Assembly (NCBI RefSeq): GCF_033095965.1
Contig: NZ_AP026801.1
Span: 310,001-374,000, forward strand
Direction: 5' to 3'
Source: Xylocopilactobacillus apis
GTDB taxonomy: Bacteria; Bacillota; Bacilli; Lactobacillales; Lactobacillaceae
Length of the DNA stretch: 64,000 nt
In this document: positions 1-37,308 of the stretch, piece by piece
Layout: the number at the start of each line of letters is the position of its first letter
Numbering within the stretch: position 1 is the first letter of the stretch
Made by a program: the position numbers and the translations under genes
The notes under the pieces: model-generated
Databases searched by the model: none
Seen by the model: only the letters and a program-made list of their open reading frames with translations
Told to the model about the DNA's origin: nothing

Positions 1-1
1 T

Positions 2-1039
2 GAAGAGAAGAAATGGAAAGACGTACTTATTAAGACGGATTGTTCATGGATACTTACTACTAACTATGATCATATTGCAGAATGTTTACTGAATGGTCGA
101 GCATTGTCGATTTATCCGAATAATATTTTTTCACAACCGAAAGGACTTGTTCCAGTTTTTCATTTACATGGTAGTATTTGGAATCCTGAAAGCATAGTTA
201 TTACTAACGAGGATTATGCTAAAATGTTACGCCCAGGAGACTATCGACAAACAAGGTTACCATTTTTATTAAAGGAATACACAATCCTCATGGTTGGTTA
301 CGACTTGGGAGACCTCAATGTTCTTTCTGCTGTTGACTGGAATCGCACTGTTAAGGTTGATTCTTCTGTTGGTTATGAACAGGATGTTTACTTTATCCGT
401 TATAAAGGTGAGGACGAAAAAGTAGTTGATAATCCTTATAAAGATCCTGAAACGGGAATAACCATAATTGAAACTAATGACGTACATTCTATTTTTTCAG
501 AAATAGTTAATCAGAATCATCTTTTAAAGAAAAAGTATTCGAAAAGCGAATCAGACGTAAAGAAATTAACACAAAAATTTGTAGAGGCTGAAAACTCACC
601 TGATAAAGAATATTCAGATTCATCTATAGAGGTTGTAAAGGATGATGCAAAAAAAGTACTAGAATTAGCTCCATTATATCCGTATTTGCTTTCAAACTTT
701 CTCATATATATAAAGGCAGTAATTGATAATATTTACAAGCAAGCACGTAAACCCAATGCTTTTGATAAATACGACATTGAAATACAAATGATTTTAATGT
801 TAATGAACGTGGTTGAAGAAATGCAGATGCCCGACACGTATGTATCTCTGCTTTGCACAGCTCTTAATAATGTGGCAGAATTTTTTGGAGATCATTCTGA
901 ATTGGGAAAGGCATGGAAAGCTACGGATACATGGAATAATGGAAAAAGAGGGATCCCTGATAAGCTTAAAGAACGCATGAAGAAATATTGTGACAATAGT
1001 TCCAATAAGCTCCTTTATGCACGTAAAGTATTGGAATGA
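2..1039 (+). CDS. SIR2-like domain protein, 5' end outside the window
   Basis: The reading frame is open from base 2, so the gene starts before the window; the first internal start codon is a TTG at 104. The visible 345 residues begin with a TTNYD motif (about residues 19-23), followed by HLHGS (about 54-58) and a VGYDLGDLN stretch, in the order found in SIR2-like NAD-binding domains (SIR2_2 type). The rest is helical with no motif I know. Stand-alone SIR2-like proteins of this kind in bacteria are often anti-phage NADases; that role is inferred here. It opens the immunity-rich island. The catalytic Asn of TTNYD is present. Confidence 0.7.
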   Translation, partial: EEKKWKDVLIKTDCSWILTTNYDHIAECLLNGRALSIYPNNIFSQPKGLVPVFHLHGSIWNPESIVITNEDYAKMLRPGDYRQTRLPFLLKEYTILMVGYDLGDLNVLSAVDWNRTVKVDSSVGYEQDVYFIRYKGEDEKVVDNPYKDPETGITIIETNDVHSIFSEIVNQNHLLKKKYSKSESDVKKLTQKFVEAENSPDKEYSDSSIEVVKDDAKKVLELAPLYPYLLSNFLIYIKAVIDNIYKQARKPNAFDKYDIEIQMILMLMNVVEEMQMPDTYVSLLCTALNNVAEFFGDHSELGKAWKATDTWNNGKRGIPDKLKERMKKYCDNSSNKLLYARKVLE

Positions 1040-1165
1040 GATGATTATTTTAGTGGTATTACACTTGAAAATATTGGCGTTTTTTTCGTGGGTCCAATTT
1101 TATTCTTTATTGCGTATAACACTATCTGGAGATTTGGTCTTCGACGATATGACAGTTTCGGATAG
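1040..1165 (+). pseudogene. remnant of a membrane protein C-terminus, possibly ABC-2 permease
   Basis: Directly after the SIR2-like gene the same frame stays open for 41 codons without a start. It encodes one hydrophobic segment ending in a positively charged RFGLRRYDSFG tail before TAG. A last transmembrane helix followed by an RRY-type tail is typical of ABC-2 transporter permeases. Nothing else of such a gene is present. It is best read as a 3' scrap left by rearrangement; the family guess is weak. Confidence 0.3.
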
Positions 1166-1191
1166 ACATTGAGAGCGCGTAGGTGCAAAAA

Positions 1192-1722
1192 ATGAATTAC
1201 ATAATATCAACAATAAGAAACACTTACAATATGCTTGACTATCTTCACGATATATCAGCGAATTTTTCGTTGTTTAATGAAGGTATTAGCCTCGAAGGTC
1301 TTGATTTTACCCTAAAATATCAAGCCAAGAATAAATCCAGTTTTAAGACAATCGAGAAATTCCACTTGTTATCCACTACTGGACCTGATTTGGTTAGTCG
1401 TGATCTTAGGGTAGTTCTTGAACAAACTGTACCAACCGAAGTTGAATTTTTTGATGCCGAAATTTGTTATGAAAATGAAATTCTAAGTGGTTTCAGTGTG
1501 ATAAATTCGATCAAAAAGATAGATTGTTGCGATATGGATAAGAGCGAATACGAGTTGACTAATTTTGATCCGCACAATCCAGTCTATATGTTCTTATATA
1601 CAGTAATATTAGATAATATACCTGATGGTTTTAATATTGTTAGATGCAATGAACAGTCAAATCTAATTGTGATCAGCGAAAATAAAATCTGTGATTTTGA
1701 ATTATGGCTTGAAGGTAATTGA
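1192..1722 (+). CDS. Imm11-like immunity protein
   Basis: 176 residues from an ATG at 1192, preceded by AGGTG at good spacing; a GTG at 1183 in the same frame is the alternative. The middle of the protein (EVEFFDAEI, then a FSVINSIKKID segment and DKSEYEL) and the C-terminal VRCNE/LIVISE pattern follow the Imm11 (DUF1629) layout: a beta-rich core, a Leu/Ile-Asp turn, and a final ser-glu helix cap. Imm11 proteins neutralise C-terminal toxin domains of polymorphic toxins. No toxin gene is attached. The family call rests on pattern similarity only. Confidence 0.5.
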   Translation: MNYIISTIRNTYNMLDYLHDISANFSLFNEGISLEGLDFTLKYQAKNKSSFKTIEKFHLLSTTGPDLVSRDLRVVLEQTVPTEVEFFDAEICYENEILSGFSVINSIKKIDCCDMDKSEYELTNFDPHNPVYMFLYTVILDNIPDGFNIVRCNEQSNLIVISENKICDFELWLEGN

Positions 1723-1745
1723 ATTCTGTCAGGCGCTTGATTTGA

Positions 1746-1838
1746 CCTATAAAGGTCGGACAGTTTGCGAACGACGCTAACAATACGCTGGAAAACTTTA
1801 TTTCTGCAATGAATAAATGGGTCAAAGATAATCTGTGA
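1746..1838 (+). pseudogene. short remnant, possibly the end of a WXG/LXG-type helical protein
   Basis: Thirty codons open after a TGA at 1743 encode an amphipathic helix (QFANDANNTLENF, then AMNKWVKDNL) ending in TGA at 1836-1838. This resembles the C-terminal helix of small helical partners or LXG N-domains of type VII secretion toxins. The TGA overlaps the GTG start of the next gene, as expected for a formerly coupled toxin-side and immunity-side pair. No start codon and no upstream body remain. Confidence 0.25.
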
Positions 1839-2281
1839 AAAAAGAATATAAACGTGAATTGCTTTATCGAAGAGGGCAAGTTAAGATTCATCAAGATCGC
1901 TATTTCAATAAAATTCAGACCTTTACAAATGAAGCTGTCAAGATTGATAGATTTCTTAGTTTAGAAGACACCGACTTGATCATCGAAAAGATTAAGCATA
2001 AGCCAATCTTGGCAAATGTTGAAGAAAATACTTCTGATTACAAAGAAGTTGCGAATTTTATCCGAACAAAGGTAAATAGTCAGCCTTATTATTTGTTAAT
2101 TGATGAAGAATGGAAGTATTTCGGCGCTTATCGGGTCCTAAATGATCTTTCGGATAAATACAATTTTGATGAATTGGTTTCTGACGAAATTAGAATTATT
2201 CCCGATGATTTATCTTTTCACATTCAAATAGATTATGATTTCGACGAAATAACATATGAGTACAAGGAATGGAACAAATAG
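1835..2281 (+). CDS. hypothetical immunity protein, paralogue of the 11.9-kb pseudogene
   Basis: 148 residues from a GTG start that overlaps the stop of the preceding remnant. The protein is basic at the N-terminus (KKEYKRELLYRR) and acidic at the C-terminus (IQIDYDFDEITYEYKE). I do not recognise the family. A close but frameshifted copy lies at 11,878-12,341, and the next gene is duplicated with it, so the two form a mobile pair. It overlaps the following gene by 13 nt. An immunity role is inferred from the context alone. Confidence 0.6.
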   Translation: MKKEYKRELLYRRGQVKIHQDRYFNKIQTFTNEAVKIDRFLSLEDTDLIIEKIKHKPILANVEENTSDYKEVANFIRTKVNSQPYYLLIDEEWKYFGAYRVLNDLSDKYNFDELVSDEIRIIPDDLSFHIQIDYDFDEITYEYKEWNK

Positions 2282-2700
2282 ACAAAAGAGAATTGGAAAA
2301 TCAGATTTATTCGTTTATGAAAGAAATGAATATCTGGGAAGTGGAAACTGAACAAAAGTATAGTGAAGTTGGCATCGAAGATTATGGGGTTGAAGCTGGA
2401 AAAAAATTAAAAAGCATTTACGATGCATATTTAACAGTCAAGGATCGACATCTTGGGCGGCTGCCAATCCCCAATGCTGGATTTCCGCCAGAATATGATC
2501 TGAACTGTGAAAAAATTACAAATGTGACCGTCCTCTCTTCCAAAAAAGTCAAGGTTGAGACGATCTGGACTCATCCAGTAGTTGAAGAAAGCAAGATTAA
2601 ATATCGATACATAATGATTAATTCTAACGGTAAATGGTTGCTTGACTCTAAAAAAATGTATTCCAGTGTAACCCAGAAATGGAAGGGGATCACTTTTTAG
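2269..2700 (+). CDS. NTF2-like fold immunity protein
   Basis: 143 residues, beginning within the last 13 nt of the upstream gene, so probably translationally coupled. The helical N-terminal half, then beta strands (NVTVLSSKKVKVETIW, YRYIMINSNGKWLLDSKKM) give the layout of NTF2-like immunity proteins, with the typical NGKWLLD turn near the C-terminus. A degraded copy of the C-terminal part, with in-frame stops, follows the paralogous gene at 12.3 kb. The matching toxin is not visible. Confidence 0.5.
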   Translation: MEQIDKRELENQIYSFMKEMNIWEVETEQKYSEVGIEDYGVEAGKKLKSIYDAYLTVKDRHLGRLPIPNAGFPPEYDLNCEKITNVTVLSSKKVKVETIWTHPVVEESKIKYRYIMINSNGKWLLDSKKMYSSVTQKWKGITF

Positions 2701-2729
2701 AATTAATCTAGATTGAGATGGAGTATAAA

Positions 2730-3209
2730 ATGAACACCCAGGATGTGAAACAGTTAAAATCTTCTGATTTGTACGAAGCTATTTTGTCAGAAATTAGAAA
2801 AATTGTACCAATAAAAATGTGTGAAGATGATCAGGAATATGAGTATCTCGACTTGAATTTTGCGCTAGAAAAAATAAATAAAGCTAATTTAACAATCCAA
2901 GAGATCGAAGATTTTATGACGACGCAAAAGGAAAACCTCATTAGTTATTCTGTTAATAAGATTAATAATTATGTAGAATTGGGAGACGAATACCCAGAAG
3001 GCGAGGAGCCAGACCCGGATGATGATTATGAAGATGAAGAGATAAATCTAGGATATTCGAAATTTTTTGTGTTAACAAATACACTCGAATATATTATGGC
3101 TCAAAAAGGAAAAACCGAACTTGTAAAATATCTGAAAAGGGTAGGCATACCGTATGCAGCAAAGTATGCCAAACAGATAATTACTGATTTTGTACCGGAT
3201 TCTGATTAA
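2730..3209 (+). CDS. hypothetical acidic protein
   Basis: The ATG at 2730 follows TGGAG at suitable spacing; an in-frame ATG at 2718 would add four residues. 159 residues with a very acidic loop (about residues 90-107, rich in Asp, Glu and Pro) and a helical C-terminus (EYIMAQKGKTELVKYL). No family recognised. It sits in the + strand immunity array with 20-30 nt spacing to both neighbours, which is the only reason to suspect an immunity role. Confidence 0.5.
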   Translation: MNTQDVKQLKSSDLYEAILSEIRKIVPIKMCEDDQEYEYLDLNFALEKINKANLTIQEIEDFMTTQKENLISYSVNKINNYVELGDEYPEGEEPDPDDDYEDEEINLGYSKFFVLTNTLEYIMAQKGKTELVKYLKRVGIPYAAKYAKQIITDFVPDSD

Positions 3210-3225
3210 AAATATCGAGGTAAAA

Positions 3226-3788
3226 ATGTTAGAAATTCAAGCGTTTGAAAAGTTATTAGAAGTACTAAAACAGCACAAAGATTTCCGGTTTTTGGCAAAT
3301 GACGAAAACTATGTGGATGAATCATATTTACATAATAATGATGGTCTAATTCAGTTTTATCGAAAGTTTGACTTACAACAAGTCACGATAGAAACAGGAG
3401 TTTCTCTAATATCGTTTATCGATTATTCAAGTTTAAAAGAACGAAACGCAGAGTATCATTTTCAAACTTAAATGAAAATGAATGTATCGTCTTCTTGGAA
3501 CAGTCGGGCGGCGGAGAATCAATTTTGTTCAATTTTGCAGATAATACTGCTGTTTATGCAGCATATGATGTGTTAGATCCGTTTAAAATCGCAGATAATT
3601 TCATTCAGTTTATCGAAGCTCTAACCGCGCTTGCAGATATTGTATACAACGAATATAACATTTACGAAGTATATACAAATGATGATTGTGATGAAATAAA
3701 ACCAGAATTTCTACCCAAAATGAATAGTAAACTTGCTCCGATCTTAGGGGATAATACCGCTAATTTTATGAACTATTTTTATGGTTAG
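3226..3788 (+). pseudogene. frameshifted SUKH-like or related immunity gene
   Basis: Two open segments, 3226-3471 and 3495-3788, belong to one gene. The first starts at an ATG after AGGTAAAA and stops after YHFQT; a one-base shift near 3465 restores a frame reading SNLNENECIVFLEQSGGGES and on to the end. The second half (ILFNFADNTAVYAAYD, then IADNFIQFIEAL) has the closing pattern of SUKH/SMI1-KNR4 proteins, where the last helix is an F-x2-F-x2-L helix. The N-terminal half is less typical. Either a decayed gene or a one-base error. Confidence 0.5.
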
Positions 3789-4536
3789 CATGAATATTGA
3801 TGAAAAGAAAACATATTATTTAGGTAAATTTGATACTGGTGAAATCTACACTGAATTTCTAGATGAAATTGCAATAAGACAAATTAATGTGATAAATGGC
3901 AAATACTTTTTGTCTTCCTCTTTAGAAGATTGGAATGAAGAATTTGGTTATCTGCTCTATGACGGTAAAAAAAGCGATTTAGATTTATCTGAATCCGTAA
4001 GTATTAATGAGGAAAACTTTGAAAAGATTTGGTTCAAACACATTTCAAATGCTGATGTTGAGTCATTTATAAAATATGAAATAGGAGATGCTTCTGCTCC
4101 TAAACACAGTTCTTCATTGATTATTCATATTGTAAACAATCGTGGAAAATGGGGTAAGGGTTTTGTTTTGGCGCTTTCAGGAAAATTTCCTGATGTAAAA
4201 ACACAATATTTAAAATGGAGTTCCCAAAAAGACTTTAACTTAGGGGAAGTTCAGTTCATTAACGCTGATAAAAATAATGGAATATATGTTGCCAATATGC
4301 TCGCCCAAGATGGAATAAGAAAAGATTACAATGATAAAACTATATATGTTTCATACGAGAAATTAGATGAGTGCTTGATAAAAGTGGCGGATTTTGCTTT
4401 AAAAAATAGATTAACGATTCAAATGCCTAAAATTGGACAAGGCTTAGGTGGTGGAGATTGGAGTGTAATACTTCAAATAATAAAAAAACGCTTGGCTTAT
4501 AAAAGGATTCATTGCAAAATTTTTACGATCAACTAG
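3781..4536 (+). CDS. DUF6881-like domain fused to a macrodomain (ADP-ribose binding)
   Basis: 251 residues; the ATG at 3781 overlaps the preceding stop, with ATG 3790 as alternative. Residues about 8-90 (GEIYTEFLDEI, LLYDGKKSDLDLSES, then NFEKIW) follow the short DUF6881 pattern of toxin-linked immunity proteins. Residues about 110-250 form a macrodomain: NNRGKWGKGF at the ribose-phosphate loop, MLAQDG in the core, and MPKIGQGLGGGDW for the second loop, closest in pattern to TARG1/Poa1p/DarG-type de-ADP-ribosylating macrodomains. The fusion suggests immunity to an ADP-ribosylating toxin by removing the modification; that is inference. No toxin is attached. Confidence 0.75.
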   Translation: MVSMNIDEKKTYYLGKFDTGEIYTEFLDEIAIRQINVINGKYFLSSSLEDWNEEFGYLLYDGKKSDLDLSESVSINEENFEKIWFKHISNADVESFIKYEIGDASAPKHSSSLIIHIVNNRGKWGKGFVLALSGKFPDVKTQYLKWSSQKDFNLGEVQFINADKNNGIYVANMLAQDGIRKDYNDKTIYVSYEKLDECLIKVADFALKNRLTIQMPKIGQGLGGGDWSVILQIIKKRLAYKRIHCKIFTIN

Positions 4537-4542
4537 AAAGGA

Positions 4543-5049
4543 ATGGCGTTGGTGAGGCAATTTAAGTTTAGAGATTGGGGCACAAAACCTCGAACAATGC
4601 TTCGATTTATTAAACCTGGCGATATTTTCAGCTTTCAGATTGAAGATAACTTATTTGGGTTCGGTCAGATAATTGCCGATTCAATGATGGGTCACAGTGC
4701 TGAAATATTCGATTATTTTAATTCCTCACCTGAGATCTCAAAAGACAATATTATTGGTGCCAAAAGATTAATCTCGCCGATAATTTTGGATTCTTACACT
4801 TTGTTTGATAATAAATTAGAAGGTGATTGGCGGATTATCGGTCACGAGGAAAATTATAAGCCTAAAGATGTTGATGGATTTTTCTTTAAATATGGAGATC
4901 CGATATCGAAAAAAGTCGATCTTTTGGGAAGTGTTACTTCTACTAATGCTAAAGAAGCAGAGAAGTATCCCTACTACACATCTCAATCCGATCATGATAT
5001 CAAAAATTTGATTCAGTTACAGAGTTTAGAAAATGGAACAAACAATTAA
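4543..5049 (+). CDS. Imm26 family immunity protein
   Basis: 168 residues from ATG 4543; AGAAAGGA lies too close to this ATG, so TTG 4549 or GTG 4552 may be used. The pattern KPGDIFSFQI, then FGFGQII, a hydrophobic IISP segment and DWRIIG is that of Imm26, a beta-barrel immunity family of polymorphic toxin systems. It ends 17 nt inside the next gene, so the two are probably coupled. A more distant Imm26-like gene lies at 18,984. Confidence 0.7.
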   Translation: MALVRQFKFRDWGTKPRTMLRFIKPGDIFSFQIEDNLFGFGQIIADSMMGHSAEIFDYFNSSPEISKDNIIGAKRLISPIILDSYTLFDNKLEGDWRIIGHEENYKPKDVDGFFFKYGDPISKKVDLLGSVTSTNAKEAEKYPYYTSQSDHDIKNLIQLQSLENGTNN

Positions 5050-5487
5050 ATTGGATGACAAAAAGTTAAAACAAGATATTAGTTTTATTGTTAAATCATC
5101 TGGCTTCCAAAAGAAGCGGGCATCATGGAGCAAAACTTGTAAGGTTATTACAATAATTATTGCGTTACAAAAACAATTCTTTACTTTTGAAATTGGAATA
5201 TGTGTTGATAAGCATTTAGAAATTGATGATTTAAAATATTTAGGTTAAATGAATTGCCTGACCTCTCTGAGGAGCAACTGATGAATATAAATAAGGCACT
5301 TAATTTAGAGGAGTATGGTGAAATACTATATTCAACGTTCATTACCCTTCTAAATGAAAAATATATGAAACAAATAGATAAATTTTTCACCATATCTTAT
5401 TTAAGACATTTGTATAACGATGGTTTTTTTAAAGATAAAATGATAAACAATTACTCTCTGAAAGTGCTATCTAATCAAAATAAATGA
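5033..5487 (+). pseudogene. DUF4304-like immunity gene, frameshifted
   Basis: The first segment (5033-5248) carries the DUF4304 opening: SSGFQKKRASWSK, a VITIIIALQK strand and FEIGICVD. Its frame stops after KYLG. A one-base shift near 5240 leads into a second segment (to 5487) reading LNELPDLSEEQL and a helical tail with EKYMKQIDKFF. Together they make one protein of about 150 residues, normal for the family. It overlaps the Imm26 gene by 17 nt. The break inside an A/T run could be decay or an error. Confidence 0.55.
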
Positions 5488-5509
5488 TTAAGCAGCCAAA
5501 CGTGATTTA

Positions 5510-5534
5510 TTTTTGATTCAAATGGAGAAGGTAA
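5510..5534 (+). other. scar of the toxin 3' end that also precedes the 16.6-kb copy
   Basis: The bases TTTGATTCAAATGG here are identical to the last codons of the toxin tip at 16,561-16,574 (FDSNG), and the following GAAGGTAAATATG is identical to the toxin stop and the start region of the next immunity gene at 16,588-16,601. A 13-base internal stretch is missing here. So the immunity gene at 5537 once followed the same toxin end, of which only this trace is left. Confidence 0.55.
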
Positions 5535-5536
5535 AT

Positions 5537-5788
5537 ATGAGAGAAATCCCTAGAAAAAGTGATTTAATTAAAAAGATACAAAATTTAATATCAGGACATG
5601 AAAGCAGGAAAACTGTTTCTGAGTGGGCGTTTGATATTTATAATGATGATTCTTTAAGAATCTCAGACCCAATGATATCTAATTACTTGGAAATGTTAGG
5701 CGCGGTAGATTTACCATCTTCAGATAGAAACTACTTATATACTGAAGAGGATTTTAGGGAATGGATAAGTGAATTACATCGTTCCTGA
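5537..5788 (+). CDS. small immunity-type protein with SEWA motif (copy 1, intact)
   Basis: 83 residues from an ATG preceded by GAAGG. The sequence RKTVSEWAFDIYN, then SNYLEMLGAVDL and YLYTEEDFREWI matches a recurrent small-protein pattern next to RHS/WapA-type toxins (S/T-x-E-V-S-x-WA, hydrophobic helix, Y-L-x-T-x-E-D-x2-x-W). I cannot name a family number. A copy at 16,599 has lost one G in the GAGTGGGCG stretch and is frameshifted. It is followed in both copies by the 173-residue gene. Confidence 0.6.
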   Translation: MREIPRKSDLIKKIQNLISGHESRKTVSEWAFDIYNDDSLRISDPMISNYLEMLGAVDLPSSDRNYLYTEEDFREWISELHRS

Positions 5789-5875
5789 TCGCATTAAAGG
5801 GAGATTTTCCTAGTTTATTGTTCAGATGAAACCAGTAGGCGACTTTCCTAAAGTCTATTGTGAGGTGATGGCAAG

Positions 5876-6397
5876 GTGTCCGTAAAAGAGGCTCTCGATA
5901 AGTATAAGAACAGCTTTGATAGTCGGGCTCAAGCCTTTGTTGAAGAATGCCTTTCATGCGGTATGACGGAGGAAGAAGCTAAGAGTGACATACAACAGCG
6001 GATACTTCCCGGTTCGGTGGTGGATAGGGTGCCGACGCTGGATGCAGCCGTGTATCAAGCAGCCTCCCCGCTCTTGAAAGAGAGGTTCTTGTATGCCGGT
6101 TCCTGGCAAGACATCGGAGAGACCTTTATCAGCGTTAATGAGATGGCCGAATTAGTTGATAAACCTCACTTTAGGAATTGGGTTGCATCCATGAGGGACG
6201 ATTGGGAGGGTTCCGCTCCGGCCATGTATCCTGACAGCCGCTTATCGCTTCTCTCTGTGATGAGCCAGGATGAGGGTGATTACACGCTTGCTGTGTGGAA
6301 CAATCCTGCAGAGCCCGAGATATGGAGATACTCAGGCCAAAGCGAGCACAAATTTAAAGACCTACTAGCCTGGTTCAACTGGCTCAATGGGAATTAA
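5876..6397 (+). CDS. hypothetical immunity protein, GC-richer paralogue of the 16.9-kb gene
   Basis: 173 residues from GTG 5876 behind GAGGTGAT. It is highly similar along its whole length to the gene at 16,904: both open SVKE(A/S)LD, contain LPGSVVD, and end with EPEIWRYSGQSE then a KFKDLLAW helix. The family is unknown to me; the C-terminal part recalls SUKH-like proteins. This copy uses many G/C-ending codons, while the 16.9-kb copy uses A/T-ending ones, so the two came from different hosts or have adapted differently. Confidence 0.6.
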   Translation: MSVKEALDKYKNSFDSRAQAFVEECLSCGMTEEEAKSDIQQRILPGSVVDRVPTLDAAVYQAASPLLKERFLYAGSWQDIGETFISVNEMAELVDKPHFRNWVASMRDDWEGSAPAMYPDSRLSLLSVMSQDEGDYTLAVWNNPAEPEIWRYSGQSEHKFKDLLAWFNWLNGN

Positions 6398-6648
6398 GTA
6401 AGGCAGGGAAGCAGGGAATATCATGGGCATGTTCATCACCTTGGACCAATCGCCTGACGATGCCTATAACAAGGTAGGCTGTTTCACGTCCTGTGTTATT
6501 TTCCGATGGTTTGAAGGTTTAAGGCTAATCGATAAAAGAGGGTAAAATCAAGGAATTGAATGAAAAATTCGAAACGCTTTAGCAAAATCCAGGAATAAGG
6601 ATGAAGTTACTTTGTTTGTACAGCATTTGAGATAATCGGAGCATTACT
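6398..6648. other. intergenic stretch with decayed coding traces
   Basis: No gene supported. A short open stretch near 6424 (MGMFITLDQSPDDAYN and on for about 40 codons) is GC-richer at first and ends in TGA-containing AT-rich sequence. It looks like residue of an earlier module. Confidence 0.35.
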
Positions 6649-7026
6649 GTGATACACGAAAAAATGATGGAACAAATAGGTTTTATAGAAGAAGAATTGG
6701 ATATTGCATTTCCTGGCTTATACCGAAAATTCCTGGCAGAAGAGATTCAAGATAACCCCTCTTATGAAATTCAAGATGAAAATGAGTCTAATATCTACTT
6801 ATTTTGCTATACGGATGTTCTTGAAAGAAACGAAACATACCAAATACAATCCGTTGAACCACAGTATTGCTTGATAGGACAAGATGGTGATATTGGGTAT
6901 TTTGTGTATGTAAAAAAGGGTAGTGAGAAGGATGCCATTTATAGTCTTGATTTCGGTGCTTTAGGTAGTTTGAGCATGGAGAGAATAGCCAACGATATAT
7001 ATGATTTAAGTGCTAAACGAATGTAG
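6649..7026 (+). CDS. SUKH (SMI1/KNR4-like) immunity protein
   Basis: 125 residues from a GTG preceded by CGGAG at 7 nt. The N-terminal helix with FPGLYRKFLAEE, a central IYLFCYTDV strand, GQDGDIGYFVYVKKG and the closing LDFGALGSLSMERIANDI are the hallmark layout of the SUKH superfamily, immunity proteins against many nuclease-type polymorphic toxins. It stands alone, with no toxin on either side. Confidence 0.75.
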   Translation: MIHEKMMEQIGFIEEELDIAFPGLYRKFLAEEIQDNPSYEIQDENESNIYLFCYTDVLERNETYQIQSVEPQYCLIGQDGDIGYFVYVKKGSEKDAIYSLDFGALGSLSMERIANDIYDLSAKRM

Positions 7027-7081
7027 CTTGTAACGCAATTGGTCTCCTTGTGCAAAGCCTGTTATTTCATAGGGGTAGATC

Positions 7082-7330
7082 ATGGCTTCTCATCCCAGTT
7101 TCAACTGTCAAAACATACCTTTGACCAAGACAAGCGAGCCTATAGGAAAGTTGACAATGGAACGATTCGATAAATACGATGAACTGTATTTGTTAGAAGC
7201 AATTCAGGATGCTGGATTAAAGAATGTCCAGGTAATTGAAGCTGATGAAATCAAACAAAAAATGCTTGATACATTTGTGGATTTTTCTTTAAATAAATCT
7301 GATGACAGATTATTTTTGAACTTTAAAGAA
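7082..7330 (+). pseudogene. 5' half of an immunity-like gene interrupted by the composite element
   Basis: From ATG 7082 (or 7157, which has AGGAAAG at better spacing) the frame reads a domain nearly identical to residues 118-175 of the intact protein at 36,517 (FDKYDELYLLEAIQDAG, DFSLNKSDDR, FLNFKE). It runs into the inverted repeat of the element at 7331. The other half continues at 10,480. The N-terminal 25 residues differ from the 36.5-kb protein, which has a zinc-ribbon domain instead. Confidence 0.8.
7328..7330. repeat. target site duplication GAA, left
   Basis: GAA directly before the left inverted repeat; the same GAA follows the right inverted repeat at 10,477-10,479. The intact homologue at 37 kb has a single GAA at this point (AAAGAACCGACA). 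Confidence 0.7.
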
Positions 7331-7830
7331 GGGGGTGCGTTGGAAAAGTTGGACACGTTGTTGTGTTGGGTTCTATGGTAGCAGGCCGTGGGTCTTGCGG
7401 TGTTGGTCGGGGCTGTTGCCGTTCAGGGTGTTCTTGATGCGGGTGGTGTTGTGCCAGTCGATCCAATCGCCGATGGCGTCCTTGAGGCCGTCCAGGGTGG
7501 TGCCGGCCCAGTCGCGGTTGTGGAACATCTCGTTCTTGAGCCTGCCGAAGAAGCCCTCGGCGGCGGCGTTGTCCGGTGAGCAGCCCTTGGCGCTCATGGA
7601 CCGGGTCCAGCCGTGGCTGTCCATGCGTTGGATCCATCCGGGCCAGCGGTAGTGGCAGCCGCGGTCGGTGTGGAGTGCCCCGGTCCGGACCCGGGAACCG
7701 CTCCAACGCCTCCCGCACCGAATGACCCTCCCGCACAAACCCCACCACACCATCACGCACCGCATCCGAATACACCACAGGACACCACCAACCTCCCAAA
7801 TAAGGTGTCCAACTTTTCCAACGCACCCCC
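7331..7830 (-). mobile_element. IS3-family insertion sequence, internally deleted left copy (500 bp)
   Basis: Bounded by inverted repeats GGGGGTGCGTTGG at 7331 and its complement ending at 7830. The - strand encodes the start of a helix-turn-helix OrfA (MRWKSW, then DGVVGFVREG and EALERFPGPDRG) joined abruptly to the C-terminal part of an rve/DDE transposase (HTDRG, then DNAAAEGFFGRLKNEMF, WIDWHNTTRI). The middle is gone; the junction lies at the GTGCCCCGG motif near 7675-7685. GC content is far above the surroundings. Not able to transpose by itself. Confidence 0.8.
7373..7765 (-). pseudogene. IS3-type transposase, C-terminal catalytic fragment
   Basis: 130 residues containing the third catalytic region of an IS3 transposase, DNAAAEGFFGRLKNEMFH with its Glu, followed by DWIDWHNTTRIKNTLN and PDQHRK. 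The HTDRG motif upstream belongs to the second Asp region. The first Asp region and the linker to OrfA are deleted. Codon use is extremely GC-rich, pointing to an actinobacterial source. Confidence 0.7.
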
Positions 7831-7881
7831 TAATTTGTTTCAGCTATAATATATATATCAACAATAGAAAGGAACATAATT

Positions 7882-8706
7882 ATGAAAGTAATTTTAATTA
7901 CAGGTGCTAGTAGTGGAATCGGTTACTCTACAGCAGAACTATTAGCAAAAAACGGATATAAAGTATATGCAGGAGCAAGACGAGTAGATAAAATGGAACC
8001 ACTTAAAGAATTAGGTGTAGTTCCACTAAGCCTAGATGTAACAAACGAGGAATCTGCAAAGAATGCGATAAAGACTATAATTGATAGTGAAGGAAAAATC
8101 GATGTACTATTCAACAATGCTGGATATGGCTCTTACGGACCAATAGAACAAGTATCATTGCAAGAGGCTCAAAAACAATTAGATGTGAATGTGTTAGGTG
8201 TAGCAAGAATGAGCCAGCTTGTATTACCATATATGAGAAAACAAAATGATGGGAGAATTATCGTGACCTCTTCTGTTGGTGGCAAAGTTACAAGCTATCT
8301 AGGTGGTTGGTATCATGTTTCTAAATTTGCAGTAGAAGCATTAAGTAACTCTATTCGTATGGATGTTGCTGACTTTGGTATTAAGGTTTCAATTATTGAA
8401 CCAAGTGGTGTTATGACTGAATGGGGTTCAATAGCTGCAGACCATCTAGAAGATTCTGGGAAAAATAGTCCTTATGAAAAAATAACAAAGAAAGTAGCAG
8501 ATTACTATCGACAAATGTATTTAAAAAAATCCTCATTAGTAAATGACCCTAAAAAAATTGCACTTATTGTTAAGAAAGCAATTGAAGCTAAAAAGCCTAA
8601 AACTCGCTATCAAGATAGTTTACCAGCTAAGGCTTCAATCCTAATGTCTAGACTTGCACCAGATAAGTTTTTAGATAAAATGATGAAAAATACAGTAGTA
8701 AAATAG
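7882..8706 (+). CDS. short-chain dehydrogenase/reductase (cargo of the composite element)
   Basis: 274 residues, ATG after GAAAGGA. Classical SDR: cofactor loop TGASSGIG at about residues 7-14, NNAG near 80, catalytic Ser in VTSSVGG and the YHVSK pair Tyr144/Lys148, and EPSGVMTEWG after it. The basic residues after the first strand (ARRVDK) suggest NADPH use. The substrate cannot be told. It is AT-rich like Bacillota genes, unlike the IS copies around it. A TATAAT-like -10 at 7845-7850 lies just inside from the IS end. Confidence 0.85.
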   Translation: MKVILITGASSGIGYSTAELLAKNGYKVYAGARRVDKMEPLKELGVVPLSLDVTNEESAKNAIKTIIDSEGKIDVLFNNAGYGSYGPIEQVSLQEAQKQLDVNVLGVARMSQLVLPYMRKQNDGRIIVTSSVGGKVTSYLGGWYHVSKFAVEALSNSIRMDVADFGIKVSIIEPSGVMTEWGSIAADHLEDSGKNSPYEKITKKVADYYRQMYLKKSSLVNDPKKIALIVKKAIEAKKPKTRYQDSLPAKASILMSRLAPDKFLDKMMKNTVVK

Positions 8707-8716
8707 GAGTATATCT

Positions 8717-9475
8717 ACGAAAATAACTATATCAAAACAGTTTCAAGGGTTTGTAAAGGGAATCGGTTTATCCTTAGATGATATTTTGCAAAAAGCAGAA
8801 ATACCTAATGTACTTTGGAAAGAAGAACTGGACTTATCCCCTGCTAATTATATTAAGTTTCTAACTGAACTAGATAATGAAATAACAGATGAACAAATTT
8901 TGTTGTTTAGTGAAGTGAAAAATATAAATACTTTTATGCCTCCATTTTTTGTTGCACTTTGTGCTAATAATGCATTAGAAGGCTTTCAGCGTTTTGCTAT
9001 GTACAAGAGATTAGTTTGCCCTCTACTAATTGATATAACAAAGAATGATAAAACTATTGATATCCATCTGAGTTTTGATATTCCTAATTCAAGTATGCCT
9101 CGCTTCACATTACTTAATGAGCAACTAGTTTTAGTAAGCTTAATTCGTACTGGAAGCAATAAGCATATTATACCCTTAGAGGTGAAATCACCTTATCCCT
9201 ACAGTAAAAGACTTATTGACTATGTAGGGCTAGAGCCTACAATATCTGAAACAAATAGCATTTCATTCTCATATGAAGATACCGTACTTCCATTTATTAC
9301 ACAGAATAATATCATGTGGGAATACATGGAGGCAGAATTAAAAAGAAGACTTGCAGAGTTGTCAGAAGAAAATAGTTTTCCTAATGTCGTAGAAAAGAAA
9401 CTATTTTTTGCTGTTCCAAGTGCTAGATTTTCTAGAGAAGAAATTGCAAAATCCTTAGGTGGGGGGGTGCGTTGA
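8717..9475 (+). pseudogene. AraC-type regulator lacking its DNA-binding half
   Basis: The frame is open from an ACG at 8717, placed 7 nt after TAGGAG where an ATG would be expected; the first usable start codon otherwise is inside the gene. The protein follows the layout of AraC regulators with an arabinose_bd-type N-terminal domain, and reaches the HTH entry (SARFSREEIAKSLG) where the right IS cuts it at about 9462. The rest of the HTH is absent. It follows the SDR gene by 10 nt, so it probably once regulated it. Two independent lesions make it non-functional. Confidence 0.65.
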
Positions 9476-10476
9476 AAAAGTTGGACACGTTGTTGTGTTG
9501 GGTTCTATGGTAGCAGGCCGTGGGTCTTGCGGTGTTGGTCGGGGCTGTTGCCGTTCAGGGTGTTCTTGATGCGGGTGGTGTTGTGCCAGTCGATCCAATC
9601 GCCGATGGCGTCCTTGAGGCCGTCCAGGGTGGTGCCGGCCCAGTCGCGGTTGTGGAACATCTCGTTCTTGAGCCTGCCGAAGAAGCCCTCGGCGGCGGCG
9701 TTGTCCGGCGAGCAGGTCGAGCATGGTGTTGGCCAGGGCCGCGTCGGGGTGCTCGCCGATGGTGTAGGCCAGGACCTTGCCGTCATAGCAGTCGATGACC
9801 GGGGAGAGGTAGACCTTGCCCGCGTCCGTCTTGAACTCGCTCAGGTCGCCGGCCAGGACCTGGCCCGGCCCCTGGGCATGGAAGTCACGGTCGAGCAGGT
9901 TGGGCACCGCCGGGCTGATCTCGCCCAGGTAGGAGCTGTAGGGCCGCCGGGGCCTTTTTTTATCAGCCCGACCGCCTCCCTGAGCACATCGACCTGCATG
10001 CGCAGCTCGGCCACCTGCCCCTCCAACTCGGCGACCCGGCCAGCATCGCCCCCGGCCTTGTCCCCGCCGGCCTTGTCCTTGCCGGCCCTGCCGTCGCCCT
10101 CACCCATGTCCAAACCCCCGTGCTCCTCGCGATAGCGCCTCACCCATTGTTGCACCGCACCCTCACCATACCCCGACTCCCGCGCCGCCACCGCCACCGG
10201 GCAGCCCCCCAGCACACGGGCCACGACCCCCAGACGCACCTCCGGCGACGAGGACGCCCGACGCACCACCCCCGCGACACCTCACGCACCGCCGGCCCGC
10301 AACGCAGCCACCGATACACCGTGCCCCGGTCCGGACCCGGGAACCGCTCCAACGCCTCCCGCACCGAATGACCCTCCCGCACAAACCCCACCACACCATC
10401 ACGCACCGCATCCGAATACACCACAGGACACCACCAACCTCCCAAATAAGGTGTCCAACTTTTCCAACGCACCCCC
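9463..10476 (-). mobile_element. IS3-family insertion sequence, right copy (1014 bp, defective)
   Basis: Bounded by GGGGGTGCGTTG at 9463 (one mismatch to the other repeats) and its complement ending at 10,476. On the - strand lie the OrfA start, a second HTH segment (VAARESGYGEGAVQQWVRRY) with a Gly/Lys-rich linker and leucine-zipper-like coil, then the DDE part (GDLSEFKTDAGKVYLSPVIDCYDGK). A deletion in the catalytic domain joins this to DNAAAEGFFGRLK, and several frames are needed. Both copies in the unit are thus inactive and would need a transposase in trans. Confidence 0.8.
9505..10472 (-). pseudogene. IS3-type transposase OrfA/OrfB, frameshifted and deleted
   Basis: Reading from 10,472 on the - strand: MRWKSW start and GPDRGTVYRWLR; then a shift into the frame of 10,269-9,841 with the second helix-turn-helix and coiled coil; then the frame of 9,907 with the first catalytic Asp (GDLSEF) and the second (SPVIDCYDGK region); then a deletion and a shift to the 9,786 frame with the Glu region. 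A normal IS3 element uses one programmed frameshift between OrfA and OrfB; here more than one break is present. Confidence 0.65.
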
Positions 10477-10479
10477 GAA

Positions 10480-10731
10480 CCGACAAATGTTTATTATAAA
10501 AACTCCCACTGTCTGCAGGTGCTCAGAAATAATCCGCAAAATGGAAAGTTTTATCTGTTTGCAGAAGAAAGCAAGAGCTGTCTGGTTTTAAACAATTGGG
10601 AGGAAGGAATAGAGATCCTAGAAAACTTGCCCTACATGAATGTTTATATCGTAGATCAGTTGTTTTCCTATGTTATTTCGGTAACTGAAGAAGACAACAT
10701 GGTTTTTACGAGAATAGAATTGAACGAATAG
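10480..10731 (+). pseudogene. 3' half of the immunity-like gene interrupted by the composite element
   Basis: Continues the 7082-7330 gene: after the GAA duplication the frame reads the same domain as the 36,517 gene (HCLQVLRNNPQ, KFYLFAEESKSCLVLNNW, ILENLPYMNVY, SYVISVTEEDN) and stops at 10,729-10,731. Similarity to the intact copy is high throughout, so the insertion is recent relative to the duplication. Confidence 0.8.
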
Positions 10732-36516: not shown

Positions 36517-37308
36517 ATGATAAAATCAGTAAATCTACGCAAGACCAAGAAAACTTTGTTTGATGGGCTGGAGCCAGAGTATCTAAATTATGGACATGAA
36601 TATTCCTGCCCCTTTTGTTCAAATAAGATTGAATCAAAAGTTATTGAATCTAAATCATTTTGTAAACTTGATGAAGACGGTAAATGCGAAGTAATAAGTT
36701 TGATTTCTGGTTTAGATTCAGGGAATAATTCTTATAACGGACTAGGATTTGTTTATAATTTTGCCAAATGCAGCAATCAACATGATTTTTTAATCGTTAG
36801 TGCTAATGGAGAATTTCAACCTGCAAGGTACATGGTGATTCATTTGGGGATTTTTGAAATAATGAAACGATACGATAAATATGATGAATTGTATTTGTTA
36901 GAAGCAATTCAGGACGCTGGATTAAAGAATGTTCAAGTAATTGCGTCTGATGAAATCAGGCAAAAAATGATTGATAAATTTGTAGATTTTTCTTTAAATA
37001 AATCTGATGACAGAATATTTTTGAACTTTAAAGAACCGACAAATGTTTATTATGAAAATTCTTACTGTCTGCAGGTGCTCAGAAACAATCCACAAAAAGG
37101 AAAGTTTTATATGTTCGCAGAAGAAAGTAAAAGTTGTCTAGTTTTAAATAATTGGGGAGAAGTAATCGAGATCCTGGAAAACTTGCCCTACATGAATGTT
37201 TATGTTTTAGATGAATTGCTTTCATATGTTATCTCAGTAACTGAGGAAGATAACATGGTTTTTACTGGGATAGAATTGAATGAAAAATTTAGAAACCATA
37301 AAGAGTGA
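36517..37308 (+). CDS. zinc-ribbon domain fused to the immunity-type domain of the interrupted gene
   Basis: 263 residues. Residues about 25-95 form a zinc-ribbon-like domain (YSCPFCSNKIESK with the CxxC pair, Cys further on in FAKCSNQHDF). Residues about 118-255 equal the protein split by the composite element (DKYDELYLLEAIQDAGLK, LNKSDDRIF, FYMFAEESKSCLVLNNWG, SYVISVTEEDN). The 7.1-kb gene has no zinc ribbon. So the same immunity-type domain occurs with and without it. Function of the domain unknown. Overlaps the next gene by 29 nt. Confidence 0.6.
   Translation: MIKSVNLRKTKKTLFDGLEPEYLNYGHEYSCPFCSNKIESKVIESKSFCKLDEDGKCEVISLISGLDSGNNSYNGLGFVYNFAKCSNQHDFLIVSANGEFQPARYMVIHLGIFEIMKRYDKYDELYLLEAIQDAGLKNVQVIASDEIRQKMIDKFVDFSLNKSDDRIFLNFKEPTNVYYENSYCLQVLRNNPQKGKFYMFAEESKSCLVLNNWGEVIEILENLPYMNVYVLDELLSYVISVTEEDNMVFTGIELNEKFRNHKE

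Follow-up and report, generated by a model that had tools for sequence, protein, structure and literature searches.

The window, i.e. the whole stretch of 64,000 nucleotides of the Xylocopilactobacillus apis genome that was analysed, contains at positions 7331-10476 a unit of 3146 bp which, as read in the window sequence, is enclosed between two copies of the trinucleotide GAA (7328-7330 and 10477-10479, with no strand assigned). The unit comprises a left IS3-family copy of 500 bp (7331-7830), a cargo of 1632 bp and a right IS3-family copy of 1014 bp (9463-10476). The two IS copies are in direct orientation, both with transposase sequence on the minus strand, and show 2 mismatches in 409 shared in-register bases; the outermost ends form an inverted repeat of 32 nt, 94% complementary. 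The cargo carries an intact gene for an SDR-family oxidoreductase of 274 amino acids (7882-8706, plus strand) and the remnant, corresponding to the N-terminal part, of an araC-type regulator gene (8717-9462, plus strand), which is cut by the right IS. With a GC content of 63.6% (left) and 67.4% (right), the IS copies contrast with the cargo (32.8%) and with the window (35.1%). A single copy of the unit is present in the genome, which consists of one contig of 2,271,855 bases.

The inner flanks of the IS copies, TAA (7831-7833) and TGG (9460-9462), match neither each other nor GAA; thus, neither copy has a 3-bp duplication of its own and the outer GAA is the sole duplication. Two copies of one IS around a cargo, a duplication at the outer ends only and an empty site that lacks the whole unit, found both in a paralogue and in a sister-species homologue of the interrupted gene, are the features of a composite transposon. 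The original prediction had placed a composite transposon at these coordinates, with GAA duplicated at the outermost ends only, GC-rich IS copies around an AT-rich cargo, loss of transposase parts from both copies and movement of the unit as a whole; the unequal inner flanks, the GC values, the deletions described below and the absence of the entire unit from the two uninterrupted genes bear out the anatomy so described and support movement as a whole.

The interrupted gene and its empty site

The unit interrupts a small gene on the plus strand, whose 5′ part lies at 7157-7330, with the start set by homology to the paralogue, and whose 3′ part, also recognised by this homology, lies at 10480-10731. 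The uninterrupted paralogue is found in the same window (36862-37308, plus strand) and represents a natural empty site. No Pfam match was obtained for the paralogue (36865-37305 scanned), nor for the frame-7082 open reading frame which contains the 5′ part of the interrupted gene. At the joint the paralogue follows the left flank through GAA and continues directly with CCGACAAATG in one continuous reading frame; it reads AACTTTAAAGAACCGACAAATG, i.e. the left flank including GAA followed by the sequence 3′ of the right GAA, and the frame remains open. Its identity is 91% to the left flank over 175 bases and 87% to the right flank over 252 bases. The unit boundaries can be considered settled because this uninterrupted gene is collinear across the joint and has a single GAA. 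In the genome of a sister species (G002; same genus, 2.3 Mb in one contig) the homologous gene (L034) is also uninterrupted and differs by one base within the 28-base site. At the level of sequence comparison, the duplicated GAA and the empty site speak for the unit having inserted through its outermost ends.

The two copies of the target gene (36862-37308 and 7157-10731) are less than 30 kb apart, and L034 is a close homologue. The insertion is adjoined by SUKH-type and Imm26 immunity-like genes and by a weak macro-domain match (6649-7026, 4543-5049 and 3781-4536); the SUKH-type and Imm26 genes indicate that the insertion site lies within a region of immunity-type genes.

Decay and relatives of the IS copies

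In a profile search the IS copies match the rve_2, rve_3 and rve models of the integrase core and the HTH_Tnp_1/HTH_28 helix-turn-helix models; the DDE-type transposase with an N-terminal helix-turn-helix part that is typical of the IS3 family is therefore present in both, as remnants. IS3-family elements have terminal inverted repeats and generate a short target duplication of 3-5 bp; both features are found, the former in the outer repeat pair and the latter in GAA here and in AAA around the relative found in Bifidobacterium mizhiense. The complete transposase frame of an autonomous IS3 element is found in neither copy, since large gaps and frameshifts occur in both; the two IS copies of the window are remnants, i.e. 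non-autonomous elements. Compared with the intact B. mizhiense relative, the left copy lacks a single large internal stretch and retains part of the N-terminal region together with the last 99 residues. The right copy has two large gaps and a one-base frameshift, its alignment to the B. mizhiense element showing gaps of 334, 131, 1 and 1 bases with transposase pieces in different frames. One residue of the expected DDE triad, judged by eye, appears to be missing from each copy. Thus, the transposases have been destroyed in different ways, with preservation of all four IS ends. In the IS3 family the usual, though not required, layout consists of overlapping orfA and orfB joined by frameshifting; the window copies are too broken for it to be read, and the intact relative has one continuous frame of 461 amino acids. 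Despite this single frame, an A7 run (ATAAAAAAAGG) is common to the B. mizhiense IS and to the right copy.

The B. mizhiense S053-2 element (NZ_BPWE01000003.1; L012:2972-4452) is a complete, unnamed IS3-family IS of 1481 bp, located after a LysR-type helix-turn-helix coding stretch; its transposase scores 357 bits with the NCBIfam transpos_IS3 model (cut-off 160). The element is flanked by its own AAA/AAA, so a 3-bp duplication fits an IS of this type. Aligned with it over 1014 bases, the right copy has 77% identity (781 bases). The inverted repeats of both start with GGGGGTGCG and contain the same GTTGGACAC block, with 3 mismatches in 26; the transposases are related and the duplication is of 3 bp in both cases. 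Conversely, the B. mizhiense IS differs in being complete, with its single 461-residue frame, and in having no cargo; one full-length match is present in that genome.

Of 360 pattern matches from a protein search of representative genomes, two were confirmed, in B. mizhiense and in Bifidobacterium cuniculi, the latter with a more distant transposase, 41% identical to that of B. mizhiense. At the DNA level, with an E-value threshold of 0.001, the IS has matches in 69 of the 189 genomes of the B. mizhiense family and in 11 of the 27 of its genus, several of the 69 being short stretches of 25-45 bases; the best piece in B. mizhiense reaches 303 bits and the next genome 132. An even draw of the B. 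mizhiense class at the stricter threshold of 1e-10 gave one match among 394 genomes, B. mizhiense itself. In the order of the host, the right copy matches only its own genome among 395 sampled genomes, and the same holds for a set of 60 relatives that overlaps the 395. No complete IS copy, proposed as a check in the original prediction, was found in the genome of X. apis, and no autonomous partner in that genome or in the three other genomes of the genus. In the searches on large groups (the IS in family, order and class, the cargo in the order) the best two candidates per genome were scored, and sampled subsets were used for the cargo in family and order and for the IS in the host order and the B. 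mizhiense class; absences in these searches are therefore non-exhaustive.

Among plasmids, 53 records match the right copy, all with less than 80% query coverage. The 20 matches listed have 21-29% coverage and 67-72% identity; the majority belong to Agrobacterium, Rhizobium and other Proteobacteria, and most carry an annotation as IS3-family transposase; beyond these 20, one record has 90-95% and 11 have 80-90% identity. A Sinorhizobium plasmid reaches 109 bits for one piece, near the weaker bifidobacterial matches, which reach 132 bits when B. mizhiense is left aside. Since the weaker bifidobacterial matches are comparable in strength to those on proteobacterial plasmids, they do not by themselves indicate bifidobacteria; a bifidobacterial origin of the IS is nonetheless well supported by sequence similarity, because of the B. 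mizhiense element and the shared ends, not because of the count of 69. The end sequence is the better indicator: at eight further loci of the B. mizhiense family (L058, L060, L061, L066, L068, L069, L071 and L076), among 61 loci scanned, there are ends that differ from the 26-base repeat by no more than 5 mismatches. No end-to-end inverted-repeat IS pair was found in parts of the weaker relatives L035, L058 and L061. The immediate donor of the IS lies outside the genomes sampled. The exact inverted-repeat pattern has no occurrence in viral contigs; in phage records the whole unit gives one match, of 6%, to a Klebsiella phage, and window positions 1-8000 give none. In another genome of the B. 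mizhiense family (G127) the sole match is a related IS end (L058:1500-1585; about 85 bp, 86% identity), perhaps another remnant.

The cargo genes

The best match of the SDR-family oxidoreductase is the NCBIfam model NF004826 / PRK06182.1, above its cut-off. Its best protein matches are 42% identical elsewhere in its own genome and at most 40% at the amino acid level in the three other genomes of the genus (the best of them in G002); judged from these values, the host genus contains no close relative of the cargo SDR. The best values in the fetched loci are 54% for the SDR protein, or 58% over a piece of 126 residues, and 64% for the AraC fragment, the latter with an intact homologue of 322 amino acids (L016). 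In the araC remnant, ACG takes the place of the ATG start codon of this homologue, and the gene is cut by the right IS approximately where the helix-turn-helix match of the homologue begins (residues 244-319). SDR and araC-type genes lie side by side in some genomes of the host order (L077, L015); thus, the cargo resembles a fragment of such a pair.

At the DNA level, matches of the cargo of at least 290 bases have only 64-71% identity. With an E-value threshold of 0.001, 16 of 61 family and 36 of 395 order genomes match, the own genome included, many over short stretches; the family search covered two of the three other genomes of the genus, without G002, which is also absent from the rows of the order search and was certainly searched for cargo only by the SDR protein. 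Two plasmid records, from Leuconostoc and Latilactobacillus, match the cargo DNA with 67% identity over 25% of the query, none covering 80%, and at least 5000 plasmid records match the SDR protein, the best among the matches listed being from Leuconostoc (53.6%). The longer cargo matches thus come from the order of the host and from plasmids of Leuconostoc and Latilactobacillus, the searches outside the order being of plasmid and phage records. No cargo donor was found in the family, order, plasmid and phage searches. The cargo and the IS appear to come from different sources, which would imply at least two transfers.

Activation of the cargo by the IS was considered and dropped, as a promoter scan listed no consensus promoter at the junction between the left IS end and the SDR gene.

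Origin and significance of the unit

The unit probably arose by IS3-family composite transposition, whether the deletions preceded or followed the insertion. In some donor molecule, a fragment of an SDR-araC pair would have come to lie between two copies of a bifidobacteria-type IS; the outermost inverted repeats would then have been used as one unit, in one event, and the unit would have inserted at GAA in a duplicated small gene, copying 3 bp. Both IS copies have lost internal transposase sequence, most simply after the insertion, which leaves the unit stranded today. Two findings speak against composite transposition: the searches of the own genome and for the cargo revealed neither an intermediate with intact flanking IS nor a second site of the unit, and three large deletions beside so few substitutions in the shared bases are somewhat many for decay after insertion. 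Gene conversion between the IS copies, however, could hide their age.

Composite transposition followed by decay is the most likely sequence; the main alternative, possible though clearly less probable, is that the unit, made of two deletion derivatives and the cargo, was already non-autonomous when it moved, and that the transposase came in trans from an intact IS, since lost or left behind in the donor. This alternative is a special case of composite transposition, so the likelihoods of the two overlap. The four ends kept while the transposases were destroyed differently, the lack of a complete IS copy in the genome and the several inactivating changes beside only two substitutions would all fit it; on the other hand, nothing dates the deletions relative to the insertion, recent decay equally predicts intact ends, and no autonomous partner is present in the own genome or in the three other genomes of the genus. 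In Tn6330 (ISApl1-mcr-1), according to the account given in PMC5821093, both IS copies were partly or wholly deleted after insertion of the composite; decay of this kind is thus documented and transposase in trans is not required.

Ranking third, and unlikely, is a history in which a single IS inserted at GAA and a circular molecule with IS and cargo was later integrated by homologous recombination between IS copies. It predicts the same IS-cargo-IS anatomy and the same outer GAA, since IS-mediated replicon fusion is known to yield this arrangement with one outer duplication, and it agrees with the near identity of the IS copies in their shared stretches. However, the IS of the circle should have equal flanking trinucleotides unless it derived from an earlier composite, so the observed TAA/TGG pair is weakly against it, and no other site of the IS was found in the genome. 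Finally, it is hardly conceivable that two IS inserted independently into resident AT-rich DNA and that GAA matches by accident: a given trinucleotide matches by chance in 1 of 64 cases, but this history is refuted by the paralogue, which lacks all 3146 bp, has one GAA and is collinear across the joint; in addition, the cargo SDR lacks close relatives in the genus.

Strain KimC2 of X. apis was isolated from a carpenter bee and has a genome of 2.27 Mbp with 34.9 mol% GC, and strain XA3 of a related species has one of 2.31 Mbp; bifidobacteria related to Bombiscardovia and to Bifidobacterium aemilianum were isolated from carpenter bees in the same study (PMC10433979). B. mizhiense is reported from honeybee (PMC10092428). 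The host is probably a bee-gut symbiont. The unit is a case of DNA exchange with sharply defined boundaries and a natural empty site in the same genome; the partners were probably Actinomycetota and Bacillota sharing an insect gut as habitat. The original prediction had proposed exchange with bifidobacteria in a shared habitat, a cargo of Bacillota type and transposition in trans. The bifidobacterial link gained from the complete B. mizhiense relative and from the restriction of matches in the host order to the own genome, the Bacillota type of the cargo from its longer matches, and the interpretation as a whole also from the single pair of GAA repeats and the absence of the entire unit from the paralogue and from the sister-species homologue; its transposition in trans stands as the alternative weighed above. 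A bolder version, in which a non-autonomous IS3 composite of two different deletion derivatives of a bifidobacterial IS moves between Actinomycetota and Bacillota inhabiting the bee gut, mobilised only by a bifidobacterial-type transposase in trans, is improbable, even more so than the recombination history; if true, bifidobacterial IS would be shared vehicles for lactobacillus genes.

A decayed composite transposon is of a well-known kind, and its element type and mechanism are ordinary; it is the mixed origin that points to cross-phylum exchange. The unit also shows how the outer duplication still reveals a composite transposon that has lost both transposases. A literature search on composite transposons in bifidobacteria and lactobacilli found no paper, and the terms "transpos" and "insertion sequence" are absent from the text of a paper naming Xylocopilactobacillus. 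Tn6330, as presented in PMC5821093, is a comparable composite that moved as a whole, has a duplication at its outermost ends and subsequently lost its IS copies in part or completely; it differs in belonging to the IS30 family, in its 2-bp duplication, in its resistance cargo and in the many intermediates known for it, against none for the present unit.

The comparison can be extended to a second type of element. Mobile insertion cassettes (MICs) consist of transposase-less passenger DNA between one pair of IS ends, without IS remnants, and presumably move by transposase acting in trans; MIC231 of Bacillus cereus is an example. Like MIC231, the present unit has passenger DNA between IS ends without a functional transposase; unlike it, it keeps two IS remnants with four ends.
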